A stretch of DNA of 64,000 bases from Leucobacter sp. UCMA 4100 (GTDB lineage: Bacteria; Actinomycetota; Actinomycetes; Actinomycetales; Microbacteriaceae): the NCBI RefSeq assembly GCF_027853335.1, contig NZ_JAFEUS010000002.1:2650514-2714513 (forward strand), read 5' to 3'. Both the position numbers and the translations under genes were made by a program. Shown one piece after another: positions 34,736 through 44,892 of this stretch. The notes under the pieces were generated by a model. The model had not been told where the DNA came from. It saw only the letters and a program-made list of their open reading frames with translations, and did not search any database. The stretch's first letter is position 1. Every line of letters begins with the position of its first letter.

Positions 34736-36323
34736 CTATCTCGTGATCCACGTTTCTCGGGAATGGTGCCAGCCCGACCGCCGGTAGGTTCCGGGAGGCA
34801 TGCCGTGCTCTTTACGAAAGACCTTTGAGAGGCCGCTCGGGTGGGCGTAGCCGAGCTTGCGTGCGGTCTCTTCGACGCTCCAGCTGCCCTCAAGGTGCTC
34901 GCGAGCAAGCGTCATGCGTAGCCCCACTCGCCAGTCTGAGAAGTGCTGGCCCGTGCGCAGGGCGAACGCGGTTCCGAGCACCCCGGCTTCAACCCCGAGC
35001 TCATCAGACCACGCTGCGAGCGTGCGGTCGTCACCGGGGCTGTGATGCGTATGGGCGATGATGCGGTCGACCGCCCGCTGGGTGGGGCTGTTGTGGCTTG
35101 GCCTTGACCGCCTCGTCTTGCGTACCTCGTCGGAGAAAAGCCTCGCGATGAGTGAATGGCGGTGGTGCTGTGGGGCGAGCCTCGTGTAGTTCGCGACGAC
35201 CGTGCGCAGGAGCGCCGACTCGCTTAAGGGGGCAACACGCAGCGTCGCGCCCGGCTCGATATCGGAGCACTGGCCGGCGGGCAGTGAGCCAAGGGGGAGT
35301 ACGACGGCGCCCGGTTCGAGCTCAAGCGTGTTCGCGATGCCCGCCGGTAGCCACGTGGCCCAGCCCTCGCAGAGCCGTTGTTCGCGGCCGCCAATGGTGA
35401 CGCGGGCCCCGCCGCGGTACGCCCAAACGATGACGTGAAAGGGGTTGATTCGGCTCCACGTCGACAAGCCCTCGGTCGGTGCCGGGGGTTGGTGCTCTCC
35501 GGGAGCGGGGAGCGTCACACTCGGCGTTCGCGGCTGAGCGACCGCATCGATGCGGGAACGGTAGGTGCTCGGGAGCATGCCAGTGCGTGCAGTGAATGCC
35601 TTCGTGAAGCCCGCGAGTGTTGCGAAGCCGACCCTCGTCGCAGCGTCTTTGACGAGGAGCCCCTCGTGCATGAGCTGGGCGGCAACGCTCACGCGCGTTG
35701 CCGTATGCCACTGGCCGAGTGCTAGTCCTGTTTCGTCGGTGAACTGTTGCTGGAGTGCGCGGGCCGAAAGGTGTGCGAGCGAGGCGAGCGAGTGTACGTC
35801 GCCCTCATGCTGAGGGTGCTCGATGAGGTGGTTGGCGACAAGACGGGCTTCGGGTGAGAAGGGGAGCTTGGGCGAGCTCACCGCGGCCGCTGCGGTTCGT
35901 GGGTGCGGTTTCGGGGGGGGGGGGGGGGGGGCGCATGGCTCTGAGCGCCTCGAAGAGGGTGTTCGTGTGGGCGGGACCTCGCAGGTAGCCAAGGCTCAGG
36001 GCAAATTGATGCAACAGCGCCGTGTGCCATTCGGTGCCCAGGGTGATGGTCAACGTGTGGGCGAAGGGTGTCGGCCCCTGCGACTCCGGGGTGAAGGCGA
36101 TGGGGATGACGGTGCTTTCGGGCGCGGGGTGAATCGAGTAGGGAACTCCCGGCGGAATAAGCAGCACGGTGTCGGCGGTGAGGGGGTGCCGCTCAGTTCC
36201 CGTGCGAACGATCGCGGTGCCCGAGTGCACCCAGATGGCGGCGGTGTCGTGTTCGTTGATGAAGGTTCTCGGTTCGGTCCAATGGGCATTGATATCGGGT
36301 GCCCATGGGGTCGTCGTGTGCAA
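34736..36323 (-). CDS. tandem cupin-AraC regulator interrupted by a G19 run (probable phase-variable gene)
   Basis: Read through, the gene encodes a cupin-like sensor (residues 1-130), a proline run, an AraC HTH unit (about 150-245), a second cupin-like region (about 275-370, with INPFHVIVWAYRGGARVTIGG) and a second AraC HTH unit (about 420-520). The start is TTG 36323 with GGAGG about 8 nt upstream. As given, 19 C on the coding strand put the two halves one base out of frame, and the upstream frame stops at 35805. With 18 C the frame runs unbroken for about 528 codons. It is divergent from the siderophore operon, sharing its iron box. A tandem double AraC is unusual. A sequencing error in the run cannot be excluded. 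Confidence 0.85.
35913..35931. repeat. homopolymer of 19 G inside the AraC-type gene
   Basis: Nineteen consecutive G on the plus strand encode Pro codons on the minus strand between the sensor and first HTH. Frame arithmetic shows that 18 or 21 G join the two frames while 19 G does not. Runs this long are prone to slipped-strand changes. Confidence 0.95.
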
Positions 36324-36382
36324 GCCTCGCCCTCCGTTGGTTCGCAGGGTACGTCTCGTGCACCCGGGATAACTGATCTGCT

Positions 36383-36401: not shown

Positions 36402-36465
36402 CTCGGTGGGTTGCCGCTTGGCAGCTCTGGAGCCGTCGCAGCGTGTTGCAGGAAGTGGGGAACGG

Positions 36466-37299
36466 GTGTCTCAAACGGGTCGGCGAGTGAGCCTGATCGA
36501 TGTCGTGGTGCGCGAGCTCGAGGTCGTGCGGGTGAGTGACGTGAGCCCCGCAATGAAGCGCGTGACCCTCGCTGGCGAGGCGTTGTGCACAGAAGCGTTC
36601 CCGCCGTTTGTCTCAACGGGTTTCGACGACGACGTTCGGATGCTCTTTCCGTATCCGGGCGAGGCCTTGCCGGTCTTACCTGAGATCGACGAGAGCGGGC
36701 GAGTGCAGTTCGCTCCAGGGCGGAGGCCAATTGCCAGGGCATACACGGTGCGCAGGCACGATGCCGACGCCGGTGAGATCGATCTCGACGTTGTGTTGCA
36801 CGGCGACGACGGGGTGGCCTCGCAGTGGGCTCAGGCGGCCCGGCCGGGCTCACCGATGCACATCGTTGGCCCAGGGCAGACGAAAAGCCTGCCCGAAAGC
36901 CCTGACTGGTGGCTCGTGTACGGCGATGACACGGCACTTCCCGCGATCGCGAGATTGCTTGAAGAGCTTCCAGCCAGCGCGCGTGGCCTCGCGGTCATCT
37001 CGGTCGCAGAGCATGCGCACCGCATCGAGCTCACGCATCCCGCTGCCGTGAGCGTGCACTGGATAGACCGGGCCGAGCACACCGCTGAACACGGCTCATT
37101 ACCCGTCCCAAGCGACCTCTTGCGTGTCGCTGAGTGGCCTGAAGGCGAGCCCTTCGTGTGGCTCGCGGGTGAACAGTCTGAGGTGCAGGGTCTCAGAAGG
37201 TTTCTGCACCACGTGCACGGAGTGCCGAAAACCGACATTGACTTTACCGGCTACTGGAAACACCACCGGCACGATACCGATGCCGCAAACGAAAGGTAA
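36466..37299 (+). CDS. siderophore-interacting protein (FAD-dependent ferric reductase)
   Basis: A 277-residue ViuB/SIP-family flavoprotein that releases iron from imported ferric siderophores by reduction in the cytoplasm. It has the ferredoxin-reductase FAD motif RAYTVRRHD (about 90-98), DLDVVLHGD..GVASQWA, and WLAGEQSEVQGLRRFL near the C-terminus. GTG 36466 (VSQTGRR) is chosen for its GGAAG/TGGGG site; GTG 36406 is the longer option. It is the first gene of the iron operon and 3 bp before the binding protein. Confidence 0.92.
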   Translation: MSQTGRRVSLIDVVVRELEVVRVSDVSPAMKRVTLAGEALCTEAFPPFVSTGFDDDVRMLFPYPGEALPVLPEIDESGRVQFAPGRRPIARAYTVRRHDADAGEIDLDVVLHGDDGVASQWAQAARPGSPMHIVGPGQTKSLPESPDWWLVYGDDTALPAIARLLEELPASARGLAVISVAEHAHRIELTHPAAVSVHWIDRAEHTAEHGSLPVPSDLLRVAEWPEGEPFVWLAGEQSEVQGLRRFLHHVHGVPKTDIDFTGYWKHHRHDTDAANER

Positions 37300-37302
37300 T
37301 CA

Positions 37303-38367
37303 TTGAACACCACATCCACACGGTTCTTCGGGTCGGTCGGCCTCGCGCTGAGCCTCACCCTCCTCATGAGCGGTTGCGCGAAGAACGCTGACTCCGACGC
37401 CGAGGCCTCAACGAACAGCGGCCAGAGCGCTGAGTCATTCCTGCCGGCTGCTGAAGGCAAGACCGAATACCCGCTCACGCTCGAAACGCCGTACGGCGAG
37501 ACAGTGCTTGAAGAGCGCCCAGAGCGAGTGGCTGCGATCGTGCCAAACGCGATCGACACCGAACTGCTCCTCTCGCTTGGCGTCACGCCGGTTCTGAGCT
37601 CAAACTTTGTGAGTGAGGGAGGCTACCTTGCCGAGCACGGAGCTGAAGAACTCACGACCTACGAGTACATGATGGGCGAAGATATCCCCATCGAGGCGAT
37701 CGCAGCGAGCGAACCCGACCTCATCATCGCGGTGGGTTGGGTGCCGGGCTTCGGCGACCTGGGCGACTCCTACGACCAGCTCGCAAGTATCGCTCCCGTT
37801 GCTGCGAGCCCGGCCTCAGACCAGCGCATGATCCGCTGGCAAGACTCGATTGAGATCATTGGTGAGGCGCTCGACCTGAGTGATACCGCGCACTCGGTCA
37901 TCGAGCAGCACGACGAGCACTTCACCGAGATTCGTGAAGCGCACCCAGAGTTCGCTGGAAAAACCGCAACCTGGGCCATTTACTACGGCCCCGCCAACGG
38001 GCTGCAGTACTTCTCGCAGGAAGGCTCGGCGCCCGAGGGCTTCCTCACCGACCTGGGCTTTGAGAAGAATCCCGAGGCCGCGTCATTTAGCGGCGATACG
38101 ACCGTGAGTGACGAACTCGTCGGCAAGATTGACGCCGACGTGCTCCTGCTCGGTCAGAGTGCTGCGGCAAGTGATGCCGAACTCGATGCGCTCACGGGGC
38201 GCGACCTCTTCCAGAACCTTGGGGCGGTCACCTCTGGTCGCTTTATTCAGCTGCCTCCCAAAACCGAAGATGGTGGCGATCTGCTCTGGGCCATCACGAG
38301 CGGTGGGCCAATCGGCAATGCCTGGGCCGCTGACCACCTCGTGCCCTTGCTCGCCGACACCTTGTAA
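37303..38367 (+). CDS. iron-siderophore ABC transporter substrate-binding lipoprotein
   Basis: A 354-residue lipoprotein: signal peptide with lipobox LMSGC (Cys about 25), then the two-lobed class III binding fold with RVAAIVPNAIDTELLLSLGVTPV and EPDLIIAVGW segments. The start is TTG 37303 after AAAGG. It captures the ferric siderophore outside the membrane and delivers it to the FecCD permeases downstream. A strong hairpin follows it. Confidence 0.94.
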   Translation: MNTTSTRFFGSVGLALSLTLLMSGCAKNADSDAEASTNSGQSAESFLPAAEGKTEYPLTLETPYGETVLEERPERVAAIVPNAIDTELLLSLGVTPVLSSNFVSEGGYLAEHGAEELTTYEYMMGEDIPIEAIAASEPDLIIAVGWVPGFGDLGDSYDQLASIAPVAASPASDQRMIRWQDSIEIIGEALDLSDTAHSVIEQHDEHFTEIREAHPEFAGKTATWAIYYGPANGLQYFSQEGSAPEGFLTDLGFEKNPEAASFSGDTTVSDELVGKIDADVLLLGQSAAASDAELDALTGRDLFQNLGAVTSGRFIQLPPKTEDGGDLLWAITSGGPIGNAWAADHLVPLLADTL

Positions 38368-38465: not shown

Positions 38466-39557
38466 GTGACCGCACTCGGTCAAGCGAGCACCCCACCGCG
38501 CGGAATGCCTGAAGGCTCACAAGCCGTGAGGGCTGACGAACACGGGAGCACCCGCCGCACGGTCGCGGCTCGTCGCGCCCTCGGGGCGGTCGTGCTGCTC
38601 GCCCTGCTCATACTCGGCATTGCGTTGAGCCTGAGCGTCGGGGCCAACCCGCTCAGCCTCAGTGACGTCTGGCGGAGCATCGTGAGCCCCGATGGCTCTG
38701 AGACCTCGTCGATCGTGTGGGGTCTGCGTGTGCCGAGAACCCTGGTAGCGATTGTTGCTGGTGCCGCCTTTGGTGTTGCCGGTGCGCTTATTCAGGCGAT
38801 GACGAGAAACCCCCTCGCCGATCCAGGCATTCTCGGTGTGAACGCGGGCGCGGGCTTCGCCGTCGTGCTCGGGGTCGGGTTTTTCGGGGTAGCCGACATC
38901 ATGGGCTATGTCTGGTGCGCGATGATCGGGGCCGTTGTCGCCACCGTTCTTGTCTACCTCGTGGGGGCTGCTGGCTCTTCGTCGCCCTCGCCGGTGACGC
39001 TCGTGCTCGCGGGCATTGCCCTCACCGCTGTCTTGATGGCGTTCACGACGTTTCTCACGCTCATTGATGAGCAGACCTTTCAATCGTTTCGTCGCTGGGG
39101 GCTGGGGTCGGTTGCTCGGACCACGGTCACAGAGACGCTCACCGTCGTGCCCTTCATTGCTCTCGGGATCTTGATTGCCCTCATGATCGCGACATCGCTG
39201 AACGCGGTTGCCCTCGGCGATGACCAAGCCGTGGCTCTCGGGGCAAACGTGATGCGCACTCGGGTGCTTGGCATCGTCGCGGTGACACTGCTCGCGGGTG
39301 CCGGGACGGCACTTACGGGAGGCATCGCGTTCATCGGTCTTGCGGTGCCGCACCTCGTGCGCTGGTTCACCGGTCCTGATCAGCGGTGGATCATCGTCTA
39401 CACAGCGCTCGCCGCGGGTGTGCTCGTTCTCGCCGCAGACGTGCTCGGAAGGGTCATCGTGAGGCCCGGAGAGATGGAGGCTGGCGTCTTGACCGCACTC
39501 GTTGGTGCCCCAGTGCTCATCGCGCTCGTGCGCCGGAAGAAAGCGAGCGGTCTATGA
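38466..39557 (+). CDS. FecCD-type iron-siderophore ABC permease
   Basis: A 363-residue permease with about nine or ten helices. It carries the family motifs LRVPRTLVAIVAGAAFGVAGALIQ, MTRNPLADPGILGVNAGAG and GGIAFIGLAVPHLVRW (the ATPase-contact loop). GTG 38466 has AAGGAG about 8 nt upstream. It forms a heterodimer with the next gene, which overlaps by ATGA. Confidence 0.95.
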   Translation: MTALGQASTPPRGMPEGSQAVRADEHGSTRRTVAARRALGAVVLLALLILGIALSLSVGANPLSLSDVWRSIVSPDGSETSSIVWGLRVPRTLVAIVAGAAFGVAGALIQAMTRNPLADPGILGVNAGAGFAVVLGVGFFGVADIMGYVWCAMIGAVVATVLVYLVGAAGSSSPSPVTLVLAGIALTAVLMAFTTFLTLIDEQTFQSFRRWGLGSVARTTVTETLTVVPFIALGILIALMIATSLNAVALGDDQAVALGANVMRTRVLGIVAVTLLAGAGTALTGGIAFIGLAVPHLVRWFTGPDQRWIIVYTALAAGVLVLAADVLGRVIVRPGEMEAGVLTALVGAPVLIALVRRKKASGL

Positions 39558-40630
39558 ACGCGGGTCTTGAAACGCAGCCTCCGGTTCGCTTCGGGTATCG
39601 GGCTGTTACGGTACGCCGTGGCTCGGTCGCACTGCGTATGGGGACGAGAACCATGGTCGTGTGCACGGTGCTCACACTGCTCGCCGTCATCATGGCGTTT
39701 CTCTCGCTCGGCTTTGGCGACTATCCGCTGAGCCCCGGGCAGGTGTTTGAGGCACTCGGCGGAGGAGGTGAGAGCTTTCACCGCATGGTCGTCACAGAAT
39801 GGCGGCTTCCCGTCGCGATCGCAAGCGTGCTCTGCGGCGCACTGCTCGCAACCGGGGGAGCGGTGTTTCAATCGCTCACGAAAAACCCGCTGGGTTCACC
39901 CGACGTCATCGGGTTTGACGCAGGTTCATATACCGCCGTCGTTCTCGTGGTGCTCATTGCGGGCAAGAATAACTACTGGTCGGTGGCGCTCGCCGCAATG
40001 GTTGGCGGGCTTCTCACCGCGCTGATCGTGTATGCGCTGTCATATCGCGGCGGCACCCAGAGCTTTCGCCTCATTATCGTGGGCATCGGGGTTTCAGCAA
40101 TGCTCGGCTCGATCAACTCGTACCTCATCACGAGGGCCGATATTGAAGACGCAATGAGCGTCGGGTTCTGGAATGCAGGATCGCTGGGCCGAATCAGCTG
40201 GCAGGCGCTCGTCCCGGCACTGCTGCTCGCCTGCGGGTTGCTTGTGGCGCTCGCCGCACTCGCCCCAGCCCTCAGACAGCTTGAACTGGGTGATGACACG
40301 GCGGTCTCGCAGGGAGTGCGCGCGGTGACCGCGAAGCCGCTCCTGCTCGTCTTGGGTGTTGCTGCCACGGCGATTGTGACGGCCGCGGCAGGCCCGATTC
40401 CCTTCATCGCACTCTCTGCGCCGCAGCTCGCGAAACGACTCACGAAGAGCGCGGGGGTAACGCTCGGAGCCTCGGCGTGCATGGGTGCCGCGTTACTCGC
40501 GGCGGCACAACTGCTCGCGCTCACGAGCGCACACTTCTTTCGCACGGTGCCCGTTGGCCTCATCACCGTGTGCCTTGGCGGCCTCTATCTCATGTGGCTG
40601 CTCATTCGAGAGACAAGGAAGCACTCATGA
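39554..40630 (+). CDS. FecCD-type iron-siderophore ABC permease (second subunit)
   Basis: A 358-residue permease with WRLPVAIASVLCGALLATGGAVFQ, LTKNPLGSPDVIGFDAGS and AGPIPFIALSAPQLAKRL. ATG 39554 overlaps the first permease; the longer open frame upstream is a shadow. Its final bases overlap the ATPase start. Confidence 0.95.
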   Translation: MNAGLETQPPVRFGYRAVTVRRGSVALRMGTRTMVVCTVLTLLAVIMAFLSLGFGDYPLSPGQVFEALGGGGESFHRMVVTEWRLPVAIASVLCGALLATGGAVFQSLTKNPLGSPDVIGFDAGSYTAVVLVVLIAGKNNYWSVALAAMVGGLLTALIVYALSYRGGTQSFRLIIVGIGVSAMLGSINSYLITRADIEDAMSVGFWNAGSLGRISWQALVPALLLACGLLVALAALAPALRQLELGDDTAVSQGVRAVTAKPLLLVLGVAATAIVTAAAGPIPFIALSAPQLAKRLTKSAGVTLGASACMGAALLAAAQLLALTSAHFFRTVPVGLITVCLGGLYLMWLLIRETRKHS

Positions 40631-41568
40631 CGAACGCGCAGGTAACCCGCGCAACCTCAGAAACGGCGGGCGCACAGACCTCGCGACTGCGCGCAGAAGA
40701 CGTGAGCATCGGCTACGAGCGGACACTCATTAGTGAGAACCTGTCGGTGGCGATTCCCGACAACTCGTTCACCGTCATCGTCGGGCCAAACGGTTGCGGT
40801 AAGTCAACGCTCCTGCGCGCACTCGCGAGGCTCATCAAGCCGAGCCACGGCGAGGTGCTGCTCGACGGCAAGCCGCTGAGGCGTTACGCGCCAAAAGAGG
40901 CTGCCAAGAAGCTGGGGCTCTTGCCACAGAACCAGGTCACCCCAGACGGCATCCGCGTCGCTGATCTTGTCTCTCGCGGTCGTTTCGCTCACCAGGGGCT
41001 CGTGCGGCAGTGGTCGAGCGCCGACGAGGCGGCGGTGCGGGACGCGATGCGAATGACGGGCGTGACCGAGCTCTCGGAGCGCTTCGTTGCAGAGCTGTCG
41101 GGCGGTCAGCGCCAACGGGTTTCGATCGCGATGGCACTGGCCCAGCAAACCGACATCTTGCTGCTCGACGAGCCGACCACCTTTCTCGACCTCACTCACC
41201 AGATCGAGGTGCTCGAGCTGTGCACTGACCTGCATGAGCAGGGGCACACGCTCGTCGCGGTGCTACACGATCTCAACCAGGCTGCCCGGTATGCGACACA
41301 CCTCATCGTTATGCATGAGGGCCGCATCGTTGCTGAAGGCCCGCCTGATGAGGTCTTAACGGTTGACCTCGTCGAGCGGGTGTTTCGGGTTCGCTGCCTC
41401 ATCACTGACGATCCCGCCGTGGGCACCCCGCAGGTCGTTCCGCTCGGCCGCGAGCGGGGCCGTGCTCGGGCCCGCGAGCGGGGTTGTGAAGGCGGCGGCA
41501 CAGGCCAGCGGCCAAGCGAGCAACCGCTCAACACCGAACGCACCGAACCCGAGGGGGCACTGCAATGA
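40627..41568 (+). CDS. iron-siderophore ABC transporter ATP-binding protein
   Basis: A 313-residue FepC-type ATPase: Walker A GPNGCGKST (about 54-62), signature LSGGQRQRVS, Walker B ILLLDEPTTFLD and H-loop VLHDLNQ. The final 45 residues are an Arg/Glu-rich tail beyond the normal end of the family. It energises the two permeases just upstream. A 4-bp overlap links it to the next gene. Confidence 0.95.
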   Translation: MTNAQVTRATSETAGAQTSRLRAEDVSIGYERTLISENLSVAIPDNSFTVIVGPNGCGKSTLLRALARLIKPSHGEVLLDGKPLRRYAPKEAAKKLGLLPQNQVTPDGIRVADLVSRGRFAHQGLVRQWSSADEAAVRDAMRMTGVTELSERFVAELSGGQRQRVSIAMALAQQTDILLLDEPTTFLDLTHQIEVLELCTDLHEQGHTLVAVLHDLNQAARYATHLIVMHEGRIVAEGPPDEVLTVDLVERVFRVRCLITDDPAVGTPQVVPLGRERGRARARERGCEGGGTGQRPSEQPLNTERTEPEGALQ

Positions 41569-43280
41569 CACGACACCGAACCGCAAACGGCGCCAGAGCG
41601 GAGCGAGGCATGATCGCGAGTGCACTGCGGCCGAGCCGGGCAGGGCTCGCGAGCGCGGTGCTCTGCGCGTCGCTCTCCGGTCTCCTCTCGCTCGCCGCGC
41701 TCTGGGGACTCATTGATGTGATCGTTCAGCCAAGCGTGCGGCAGGTGGTCGTGGTCGGGGCGCTGTGGGTTGCGACGGCTGTGAGCGCCTCGCTCTCGAG
41801 CTGGCTCGCGCACAATGCCGAGGCTCAGTTCTCGGCCCGGCTGAGCGAATCGGTGGTGGCTCACCTCATGCGGTTGCCTGAGAGTACCGTCGCGCGCTAC
41901 AGTGGCAACGACCTGCGCAGGCTCGTGACCGACAACATCACGGCTCTGCACCACATGGTCGCGCACCTGCCAGCAGAGATTGCCGCTCTCGTGGTCGTGC
42001 CGGCGGCTTCGATCGTGACGCTAGTCACGGTTGCCGGCCCGCTCTCCTTGCTTGCGCTGATTCCAGGGCTCATCGCCTCGGGGTACTACCTGTGGGTCGT
42101 GCCTCGCACCTCGGCAAAGCACGGAGCCGAGAGCATGCGGGTCATGGGCGACATCGTCACGGCGGTCGATGATTACACGCGCGGCATCGCCACCTGCAGG
42201 CTCTACAGTGCAGAGGCCGGTGCTCGCGCCGACTACGAACGCGAGAGCAGGGCTTTTACCAGTGGCATGGTGACGTGGATCAAACGGGTCGCGACCCTCG
42301 GCAGCGTTGCGGTGGCAGCGATGCAGGCCGCAGTGACCTATGCGGTGGCGTACCTCGTGGGCTACGGGAACAGTGTTGAGGTGCTGTCGGTGCTGCTCAT
42401 GTTCAGCCTCGCGGTCGTCACACCCGCGCTCAGGCTTGGCCACGGCCTCGACTACGTTCGTGCGGGGCGCATAGCCGCCGGTGAGCTCAAAGCCTTTGCG
42501 GCGGAGGCCGAGACGCGAGGCCCAACGATGATGCAAAGCGGGATCGATGTGGGTTCTCCTGGTGCTCGTCCCGTAGACGCGGTGATTTCACTCGACCGGG
42601 TCTCGCTCCAGGCAGAGCAGCGTGTGCTCTGGCGCGACCTCAGCCACGACTTTCGCCCTGCAACGATGACGGCCATTCGTGGCGTCTCAGGAACGGGCAA
42701 AACGACGCTTCTTCGCTGCATGGCGGGTCACGAAGATCCAACGAGCGGCAACGTCGTGCTGCACGGCGACCCGGGAGAGACGGCGGGCGAGCGCCCGCTT
42801 CACGAGCGGGTAATGCTCATTATGCAGGGCTCCGACGTACTCGCGGGCACCGTGCGCGAAAACCTCGCAGTGGCCGCGCCCGCTGCGAGCGATGCTTCGA
42901 TGCTCGAAGCCCTCGACCGAGCCCAGCTCACGGTTGCGCTCGATGCCGACGCCGCAGTGCTCTCAGGAGGCGAGAAACAACGGCTTGGTCTCGCGAGGGT
43001 GTTTGTGGGCGACGCGCGGGTGGTGCTGTGCGATGAACCGACAAGCGCGCTCGACCAAGATACGGCGCAGCGGGTCATGCGAGAGCTCCTCATCGAGTGT
43101 GAGCGAGCCGAGATCGCACTCATCGTCGTCACTCACGATGACGAAGTCGCAGGCTTGGCGCACGAGACCCTGGTGCTCGGAGAAAGCACGGGGGAGCGCA
43201 GCGGAGACAATCACCAGGAAGAACAGTGCGCGCGCACAGAGCGCGTAGCGGCACCAGAAGGAGCACAGGATGCGCGGTAA
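41565..43280 (+). CDS. ABC half-transporter (IrtA/YbtP-like), permease plus ATPase
   Basis: A 571-residue protein with six membrane helices (about 20-310) and an ABC domain (Walker A GVSGTGKTT about 373, signature LSGGEKQRL about 466, Walker B VVLCDEPTSALD). It pairs with the next half-transporter. Exporter-fold pairs of this type next to siderophore genes act as importers in mycobacteria (IrtAB) and Yersinia (YbtPQ). Here the reductase (SIP) is a separate gene rather than fused as in IrtA. Export of an emptied siderophore is the alternative. Confidence 0.88.
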   Translation: MTRHRTANGARAERGMIASALRPSRAGLASAVLCASLSGLLSLAALWGLIDVIVQPSVRQVVVVGALWVATAVSASLSSWLAHNAEAQFSARLSESVVAHLMRLPESTVARYSGNDLRRLVTDNITALHHMVAHLPAEIAALVVVPAASIVTLVTVAGPLSLLALIPGLIASGYYLWVVPRTSAKHGAESMRVMGDIVTAVDDYTRGIATCRLYSAEAGARADYERESRAFTSGMVTWIKRVATLGSVAVAAMQAAVTYAVAYLVGYGNSVEVLSVLLMFSLAVVTPALRLGHGLDYVRAGRIAAGELKAFAAEAETRGPTMMQSGIDVGSPGARPVDAVISLDRVSLQAEQRVLWRDLSHDFRPATMTAIRGVSGTGKTTLLRCMAGHEDPTSGNVVLHGDPGETAGERPLHERVMLIMQGSDVLAGTVRENLAVAAPAASDASMLEALDRAQLTVALDADAAVLSGGEKQRLGLARVFVGDARVVLCDEPTSALDQDTAQRVMRELLIECERAEIALIVVTHDDEVAGLAHETLVLGESTGERSGDNHQEEQCARTERVAAPEGAQDAR

Positions 43281-44892
43281 GACACGCAAAAGATTGGCCG
43301 TCATCGCACTCGGGTGGGTGGTCGTCGCCGTTAGTGAGGCTGCGGCCTATATCGTTCTCGCGCTCAGCATCGTTTCTGGAAAGGGGCCTGGGGCGGTTGC
43401 CGTGGCGAGCCTCGTTGCGCTCGGAGTGACGGTGCTGGTGCAGCGGTCGGGGTACCTCACTGGCGCCAAGCTCGCCGGCGATCTTTTTGAGAAGCTCGGC
43501 GGGGCACTCGCGGAAACGAGGCTTTCGTGGTTTACCGAGCGCAACAGGTCGCTCGTGACGGGCGTCGCGTCGAGAGTTATTCCCTCGATGATGAGCGTTC
43601 CAGCGCACACGCTGCAAACCTTTATCGTTGCTCCGCTCGTTCCGCTGCTGCTCGTTGGAGGGATGGCGTTCGTTGTGCGGCCATCGGCGGCGCTTTGGGT
43701 TGGCGTGGGTCTCGGTGTCGCTCTTTGCGCACAGTATGTGGCACAGCGTTCACTCGCTCGGGCCGACCAAGGGCGAGCAGCCTGCGACGAAGCGGTTGCC
43801 GTGGGCGCCACCGAACTGCTTGAGCACCGAGAGCTCCTTCGCGCGATGGCTGGCCCAGAGCGCGCGAGTGAGCGGCTGCGTGCCGCGCAGCGTGACCAGC
43901 AGCAGCTCCTTCGACGCATCAACCGCGCCTCGGCGCTCGCTACCGGGGCAGCGAGCGCCGCAACGGTAGCACCGCTTGCCGCTGCAATGCTCACCCTGGT
44001 CTGGGGCCCCGGCAGCAGCCCCGCCGAGGCGCTCGCTCTCGTGCTCCTCACGATGCGAGCCGCGGCTCCCCTCGAAACGCTCGTCACCGCGGGGCTGTCA
44101 CTGCGTGACCTGCAAAACTCGCTCAGACAGTTCCGTGAGGTCACCGGTGCTCCCGTGCTACCAGAGGCTGAACAGCCACGCACACCCCAGTCGGCTGAAC
44201 TCGGCATCTCGGTGCGGTCGCACCGAGGCGTGCTCGGTCCGCTCGACGAGACGATTGCTGCGGGGGAGCGCGTCGTTATTTCAGGCCCCACCGGCAGTGG
44301 GAAAAGCACACTGCTCGGCCTTCTCATGCGCTTTGAAGACCCTGATGAAGGGGCGATCACCCTCGGCGGGGTGCCGCTCACCGAACTGCGCTACTCAGAA
44401 CTCGCCAACCGCGTCGCCTACGTCGCGCAAGACCCCGTCATCTTTTCGACGAGTCTTGCCGACAACATTCGCCTCGGCGATCCGCTCGCCAGCGACGATG
44501 ACGTCTTGCGCGTGGCGCGTCTCGCAGCGCTTGAGGGGGTGCTCGGGCGTGATCCGCAGGGAATTCATCAGCGGGTCGGGCATCGTGGCAGCACCCTCTC
44601 GGGAGGAGAAAAGCAGCGTGTTGCGATTGCGCGGGCGCTGCTCAAGAACGCCCCCGTTCTGGTGCTCGACGAAGCAACCTCGGCGCTTGACGCGGCGACT
44701 GAACAGCGCGTCGTGAACGCTCTCAGTAAACATCCAGAGACGACAATGCTGATTGTGGCCCACGGTGATGTTCAGGTATGGCGCCCCACAAGAGGGATAC
44801 CATTAGAGTTTGGTCGTGAGATCGCAGAAACGGCTACTCCCCTGACGAATGGGGGTAGCGCTTCGCTAGGGGCGAGCCGCGTGCAGCACTAA
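43270..44892 (+). CDS. ABC half-transporter (IrtB/YbtQ-like), permease plus ATPase
   Basis: A 540-residue protein: six-helix domain (about 8-290), then an ABC domain with Walker A GPTGSGKST (about 338), the Q-loop YVAQDPVIF, signature LSGGEKQRV (about 442) and Walker B VLVLDEATSALD. It overlaps the partner gene by 11 bp. The C-terminal 30 residues after the H-loop (VAHGD) are low complexity. It is the last gene of the iron operon. Confidence 0.88.
   Translation: MRGKTRKRLAVIALGWVVVAVSEAAAYIVLALSIVSGKGPGAVAVASLVALGVTVLVQRSGYLTGAKLAGDLFEKLGGALAETRLSWFTERNRSLVTGVASRVIPSMMSVPAHTLQTFIVAPLVPLLLVGGMAFVVRPSAALWVGVGLGVALCAQYVAQRSLARADQGRAACDEAVAVGATELLEHRELLRAMAGPERASERLRAAQRDQQQLLRRINRASALATGAASAATVAPLAAAMLTLVWGPGSSPAEALALVLLTMRAAAPLETLVTAGLSLRDLQNSLRQFREVTGAPVLPEAEQPRTPQSAELGISVRSHRGVLGPLDETIAAGERVVISGPTGSGKSTLLGLLMRFEDPDEGAITLGGVPLTELRYSELANRVAYVAQDPVIFSTSLADNIRLGDPLASDDDVLRVARLAALEGVLGRDPQGIHQRVGHRGSTLSGGEKQRVAIARALLKNAPVLVLDEATSALDAATEQRVVNALSKHPETTMLIVAHGDVQVWRPTRGIPLEFGREIAETATPLTNGGSASLGASRVQH

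Follow-up and report, generated by a model that had tools for sequence, protein, structure and literature searches.

A regulator gene with a probably slippage-prone C run, out of frame as assembled, beside a siderophore-uptake operon in Leucobacter sp. UCMA 4100

The window analysed here, a 64-kb stretch of the Leucobacter sp. UCMA 4100 genome, contains what is probably a slippage-prone and presently frame-broken gene for a regulator of siderophore uptake. That the run evolved as a hedge is possible, but the findings do not support it. The favoured reading, to which a probability of about 60% is given, is that of one tandem AraC-family gene with a probable role in uptake control, into which a slippery C run was introduced in this lineage, and of a mixture of ON and OFF cells that would be incidental.

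Results

One AraC-family gene divided by a homopolymeric run

At positions 35913-35931 of the window, 19 consecutive Gs are found on the forward strand, corresponding to C19 on the coding strand (Table 1). The next-longest run of G or C anywhere in the 64 kb comprises six nucleotides, and matches to G10 averaged 0.05 in 100 dinucleotide shuffles of the window; a length of 19 is far above the chance expectation. The length of the run sets the reading frame. With 18 Cs the run encodes six prolines and the frame is kept, while with 19 Cs translation stops at 35805, and removal of a single C fuses the two frames into a protein of 528 amino acids, the difference between 18 and 19 lying at the limit of what any assembly can resolve. 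The sequence-only reading had placed the run and both frames exactly here, with about 528 continuous codons at 18 G and a stop at 35805 at 19 G, all of which was reproduced. Besides the run, the assembled 528 codons contain neither a stop codon nor a frameshift. A good Shine-Dalgarno sequence was not found before the in-frame start codons past the run (nearest GTG at 35881, ATG at 35671), and restart of translation downstream of it was therefore rejected; unless the RNA polymerase or the ribosome slips, a DNA-binding product should be missing at 19 C.

Table 1. Coordinates of the regulator gene, the intergenic region and the uptake operon in the window
Feature	Position	Strand	Remarks
HTH2 (Pfam HTH_AraC)	34781..34903	-	residues 364-404 of the 418-aa frame
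Downstream frame	34736..35911	-	HTH1, second cupin-like domain, HTH2; same gene
HTH1 (Pfam HTH_18)	35552..35788	-	residues 69-147 of the 418-aa frame
Upstream frame as assembled	35805..36323	-	TTG start, cupin sensor, frameshifted tail, stop at 35805; 172 aa
C19 run (G19 on +)	35913..35931	-	linker between first cupin and first HTH; net 13-nt insertion compared to sister species
Cupin 1 (Pfam AraC_binding)	36114..36254	-	residues 24-70 of the 172-aa frame
GGAGGG ribosome-binding-like site	36330..36335	-	before TTG 36323; conserved in sister species
DtxR/IdeR-like iron box TTGGGTAAGGCTAGCCTAA	36383..36401	+	16/19 to TTAGGTTAGSCTAACCTAA; predicted, divergent intergenic region
Siderophore-interacting FAD-binding reductase (SIP)	36406..37299	+	true start may lie further in
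FecB-like siderophore-binding lipoprotein	37303..38367	+	
FecCD-type permease 1	38466..39557	+	
FecCD-type permease 2	39551..40630	+	listed ORF start 39386
FecE-type ABC ATPase	40627..41568	+	listed ORF start 40477
ABC half-transporter, membrane + ATPase domains	41565..43280	+	half-exporter-like
ABC half-transporter, membrane + ATPase domains	43270..44892	+	half-exporter-like

Pfam matches were obtained for an N-terminal sensor in the first half (AraC_binding, 8.9e-7) and for AraC-type HTH domains in the downstream frame (HTH_18, 1.8e-35, in two stretches; HTH_AraC, 1.3e-9). In the window protein itself, the second sensor domain did not match any Pfam family; a second cupin-like domain was matched in the orthologue of a sister species (AraC_binding_2, 4.7e-6) and in homologues (Cupin_2), and Pfam matches of the orthologue and of two homologues back the order cupin-HTH-cupin-HTH. 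A 652-codon paralogue encoded in the same genome, of whose cupins only the second reached a Pfam match, shares the tandem layout, and among 400 Microbacteriaceae genomes that were sampled, several encode long homologues covering both modules. The layout, which had earlier seemed unusual, is thus not unique. The frames flanking the run are two parts of a single AraC-family gene with the order cupin-HTH-cupin-HTH.

The sister species Leucobacter chinensis (strain NC76-1), the sole genome of the same genus in the set of relatives, the source species itself being represented by one genome, carries the orthologue as a single intact open frame of 552 codons, 80% identical to the joined protein over residues 3-528. 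This bears out the claim of one gene divided by the run, and two separate genes were rejected. The L. chinensis orthologue is devoid of the run and reads GCGGCCCACGAAG at the site. On the nucleotide level, GCG GCCCACGAAGCCGCAC in L. chinensis corresponds to GCG C19 GAAACCGCAC in the window, a net insertion of 13 nt, which puts the window copy out of frame and from which the loss of one base restores it. RPTKPHPRT of the L. chinensis protein is opposed to RPPPPPPKPHPRT in the window, i.e. RPTKPHPRT has changed to RPPPPPP-KPHPRT with one extra base. The TTG start codon, like the GGAGGG upstream of it, is conserved in L. chinensis. In the only orthologue found, the gene thus proved intact and the run absent. 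Conservation of the tract, a supportive though not strictly required sign of selection, is thus lacking in L. chinensis. Conservation among homologues was likewise rejected, as none of the homologous tandem genes contains a G/C run of at least 8 nt; a single such run was detected in their vicinity, a C10 more than 3 kb away from the gene (L045).

In the comparison with L. chinensis, dN/dS was 0.24 for the part preceding the run and 0.15 for the part that follows it (first cupin 0.24, HTH1 0.11, cupin 2 0.27, HTH2 0.05), and the complete neighbouring genes, partial or diverged ABC genes excepted, showed values of 0.06-0.16. These ratios indicate that both halves of the gene are under purifying selection apart from the run. 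A recent, reversible or erroneous frameshift would fit them better than an old pseudogene, a pairwise estimate being unable to date the frameshift.

Repair genes and expected stability of the run

The genome encodes NucS (2.1e-44), while no match to the MutS domain MutS_V was detected in it; the control was positive in 11 genomes. In Mycobacterium smegmatis, indels of 1-2 nt escape repair by NucS (PMC11551767). Taken together, this makes slippage at C19 very likely, in line with the earlier assertion that a run of this length is hypermutable. Intragenic tracts of only G10-G12 in Bifidobacterium breve are of mixed length even when derived from a single colony, and the reference sequence has G11 at a tract for which G12 is found in the majority of cells (PMC9187656). 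By analogy, a 19-nt run is very unlikely to be uniform in this strain.

Linkage to siderophore uptake

The divergently oriented operon next to the regulator gene encodes uptake proteins (SIP, FecB, FecC, FecD, a FecE-type ATPase and two ABC half-exporter-like proteins) and not siderophore synthesis. The former description as a siderophore operon therefore holds for uptake and had to be corrected for synthesis genes, which are not part of it. A predicted DtxR/IdeR-like iron box lies between the regulator gene and the operon. It is the best match in the window to the consensus, taken from a study of Corynebacterium glutamicum (PMC1382209), and 20 mononucleotide shuffles reached at most 15/19. 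In L. chinensis, the gene order around the regulator is the same and an iron-box-like site (15/19) is located at the same place. Tandem homologues divergent from FecCD genes were also found at L120 and L121 and at L044 and L045, the latter two representing the paralogue. The linkage to siderophore importer genes is thus conserved both by synteny in L. chinensis and among homologues, and the same tandem regulators stand beside Fec-type importers in other genomes, as expected from the proposed connection to siderophore uptake. Since the paralogue adjoins a Fec operon of its own, it is probably not redundant. From its position, the regulator probably controls the divergent uptake operon, either as activator or as repressor.

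Long G/C runs in the genome and in the family

Only four runs of at least 11 nt (C15, C20, C18 and the G19 described here) were found in the whole genome, of which the first three are intergenic; a genome-wide contingency system was rejected on these grounds. The site of C18 in L. chinensis is ordinary C-rich sequence without a run. Downstream of C18, a segment (L011:5200-5270) has about 12 matches in the sister genome (74-86% over approximately 65 nt) and represents a dispersed intergenic repeat. C20 (L010:5343-5362) is located between the end of a gene for an Lrp-type regulator and a gene for an IS30-type transposase, and its flank gave no match in the sister species.

Runs of at least 12 nt are present in 31 of 59 genomes, the window's own genome counted. 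With one low-GC genome (G006) set aside, 48 runs with lengths of 12-45 nt were collected, of which a loose test left at most 10 as possibly intragenic. The coding-potential score trained on the window was unsuited to G006; a GC-position test and reading by eye were used instead. Among the runs read by eye, coherent proteins were recognized only at the window locus and at two others. One of these (L073:1555-1566, genome G035) is an in-frame G12 on the coding strand, encoding Gly4 within the motif RYP-GGGG-NFVSGYDW of an arabinofuranosidase-like protein, possibly a further expansion of a run in a conserved gene; two glycines are presumably to be expected there. The other (L097:1556-1570, genome G031) is an in-frame G15 on the coding strand, encoding Gly5 in a probably secreted protein. 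Two assembly artefacts, a G547 in the middle of a contig (L074:1517-2063) and a C57 at a contig end (L064:1-57), may serve as a warning for homopolymer surveys. The family-wide picture argues for long G/C runs arising haphazardly in Microbacteriaceae and for the window run having fallen into a tolerant linker by chance, selection being possible.

The 1.4-Mb genome G006, which also belongs to the Microbacteriaceae, harbors 19 tracts of G13-14. About ten of them form the spacer between TTGATT or TTGACT and a -10-like motif upstream of genes for signal-peptide-bearing or surface-type proteins (among them L047, L049, L055, L056, L058, L059 and L060) and are candidate phase-variable promoters. One tract-bearing pair encodes SpaA-type pilins (SpaA/GramPos). 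In addition, a G13 breaks the gene of an N6/N4 DNA methylase near its start, out of frame (L054:1407-3001; DPPF motif; PF01555, 2.3e-43), making it a candidate phase-variable methylase that would control a phasevarion. With this contingency-locus pattern, G006 appears to be a better candidate than the window for phase variation in Microbacteriaceae, and the statement that phase variation is unusual in this family is, in view of the promoter-spacer tracts and the methylase tract, probably wrong.

Discussion

The course of events that we consider most plausible would have begun with the substitutions CGG to CGC and ACG to CCG, which probably joined adjacent Cs into a short run by the simplest path; slippage would then have lengthened this run to about 19. 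It came to lie in the first interdomain linker, a tolerant position. At 19 C the protein would end after the first cupin and lose both HTHs (OFF), whereas 18, 15 or 21 Cs would give a full-length protein with a linker of Pro5 to Pro7 (ON). One-base slips that are left unrepaired, given that MutS was not detected and NucS is the enzyme present, should lead to a population in which ON cells and OFF cells coexist in shifting proportions, presumably as a by-product and not by selection.

A selected contingency locus, with the run maintained for the hedge on siderophore uptake that a randomly switching regulator would give the population, would suit the position of the run inside the regulator of a costly and exploitable trait, the linker that makes every third length functional and the otherwise intact gene, and has precedents in the poly-C of gonococcal FetA for iron uptake and in the T-tract beside the AraC-family gene spy1337 (Spy1337) of Streptococcus pyogenes for a regulator. 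It is nevertheless unlikely, as the sister species has no run at this site, the three other long runs of the genome look haphazard (C18 being missing in the sister species as well), and about half of the relatives carry such runs, few of them possibly within genes. The haphazard occurrence across the family argues against selection for switching and leaves the earlier proposal of an evolved hedge unsupported; a selected ON/OFF slippage switch of the tandem regulator, by which a clonal population of the Leucobacter group would be divided into cells that use siderophores and cells that do not, is unlikely. An error in the assembled length, with a true tract of 18 C (or 15 or 21) and an ON gene in nearly all cells, has to be considered since a run of 19 nt is of unreliable length on any platform, as the B. 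breve reference and the artefactual runs in related assemblies illustrate, and would agree with purifying selection on both halves. The assembly, however, consists of two contigs, and the run is situated in the interior of one of them, where its flanks are unique and the neighbouring genes intact; even a consensus of 18 would hardly be stable, so that we regard a mere error as quite unlikely.

Loss of the regulator by a recently fixed frameshift is improbable. Both HTHs are indeed lost as assembled and a paralogue of the same layout is encoded elsewhere, but a second lesion is absent from the 528 codons, HTH2 has a dN/dS of 0.05, and the paralogue, with a Fec operon of its own next to it, is probably not redundant. 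Proline codons of the type CCC-C are known to slip in the +1 direction, and the long run with 19 C would need exactly a +1 shift, in which one C is skipped. RNA polymerase slippage or such ribosomal slippage could thus provide full-length protein at any length and act as a damper instead of a switch; yet no specific stimulator came to notice and C runs usually support slippage at low efficiency, which renders this bypass highly improbable.

If the run varies in cells, the regulator would expose the whole siderophore-uptake operon to switching that is random and heritable, and this in an actinobacterium without indel-correcting mismatch repair. Were a selected switch true after all, it would mean phase variation of an iron-uptake regulator in an environmental actinobacterium. 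It would also be a warning for annotation, in which a gene of this kind would be entered either as a pseudogene or as two separate genes. By the family survey, long G/C runs appear to arise often in Microbacteriaceae and to lie mostly outside of genes, a baseline for claims of phase variation, with the candidate tracts of G006 as an example of how a convincing slippage system in the family looks.

By analogy, the locus would be a slippage switch of a known kind, for which the pilus genes bbr_0113 and bbr_1889 of B. breve UCC2003 are a close precedent (PMC9187656). There, too, an intragenic G/C run in an actinobacterium causes one gene to be annotated as two ORFs, which are fused when one base is lost or gained. 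These tracts, however, are located in pilus genes, recur in several Bifidobacterium species, and their variation and in-vivo enrichment were measured, whereas the window tract lies in a regulator gene, has no counterpart in the sister species and is known here from the sequence of one assembly. Cutibacterium (Propionibacterium) acnes and Gardnerella, Actinobacteria as well, possess many variable G/C tracts, partly intergenic and partly frame-breaking, and their variation was seen across strains or colonies (PMC4746626, PMC11287997), in contrast to the single assembly of the window. Slippage-controlled siderophore uptake and an iron-repressed AraC-like regulator are both found in gonococci with FetA and its activator MpeR, where the poly-C run is situated in the promoter of the transporter gene and MpeR itself is not described as slippage-controlled (PMC5320596, PMC9519893). 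RipA of C. glutamicum, likewise an AraC-family regulator of an actinobacterium and part of the DtxR iron network (PMC1382209), represses iron-using proteins, while the window protein is a tandem cupin-HTH protein encoded beside a siderophore importer, the two being likened by class.
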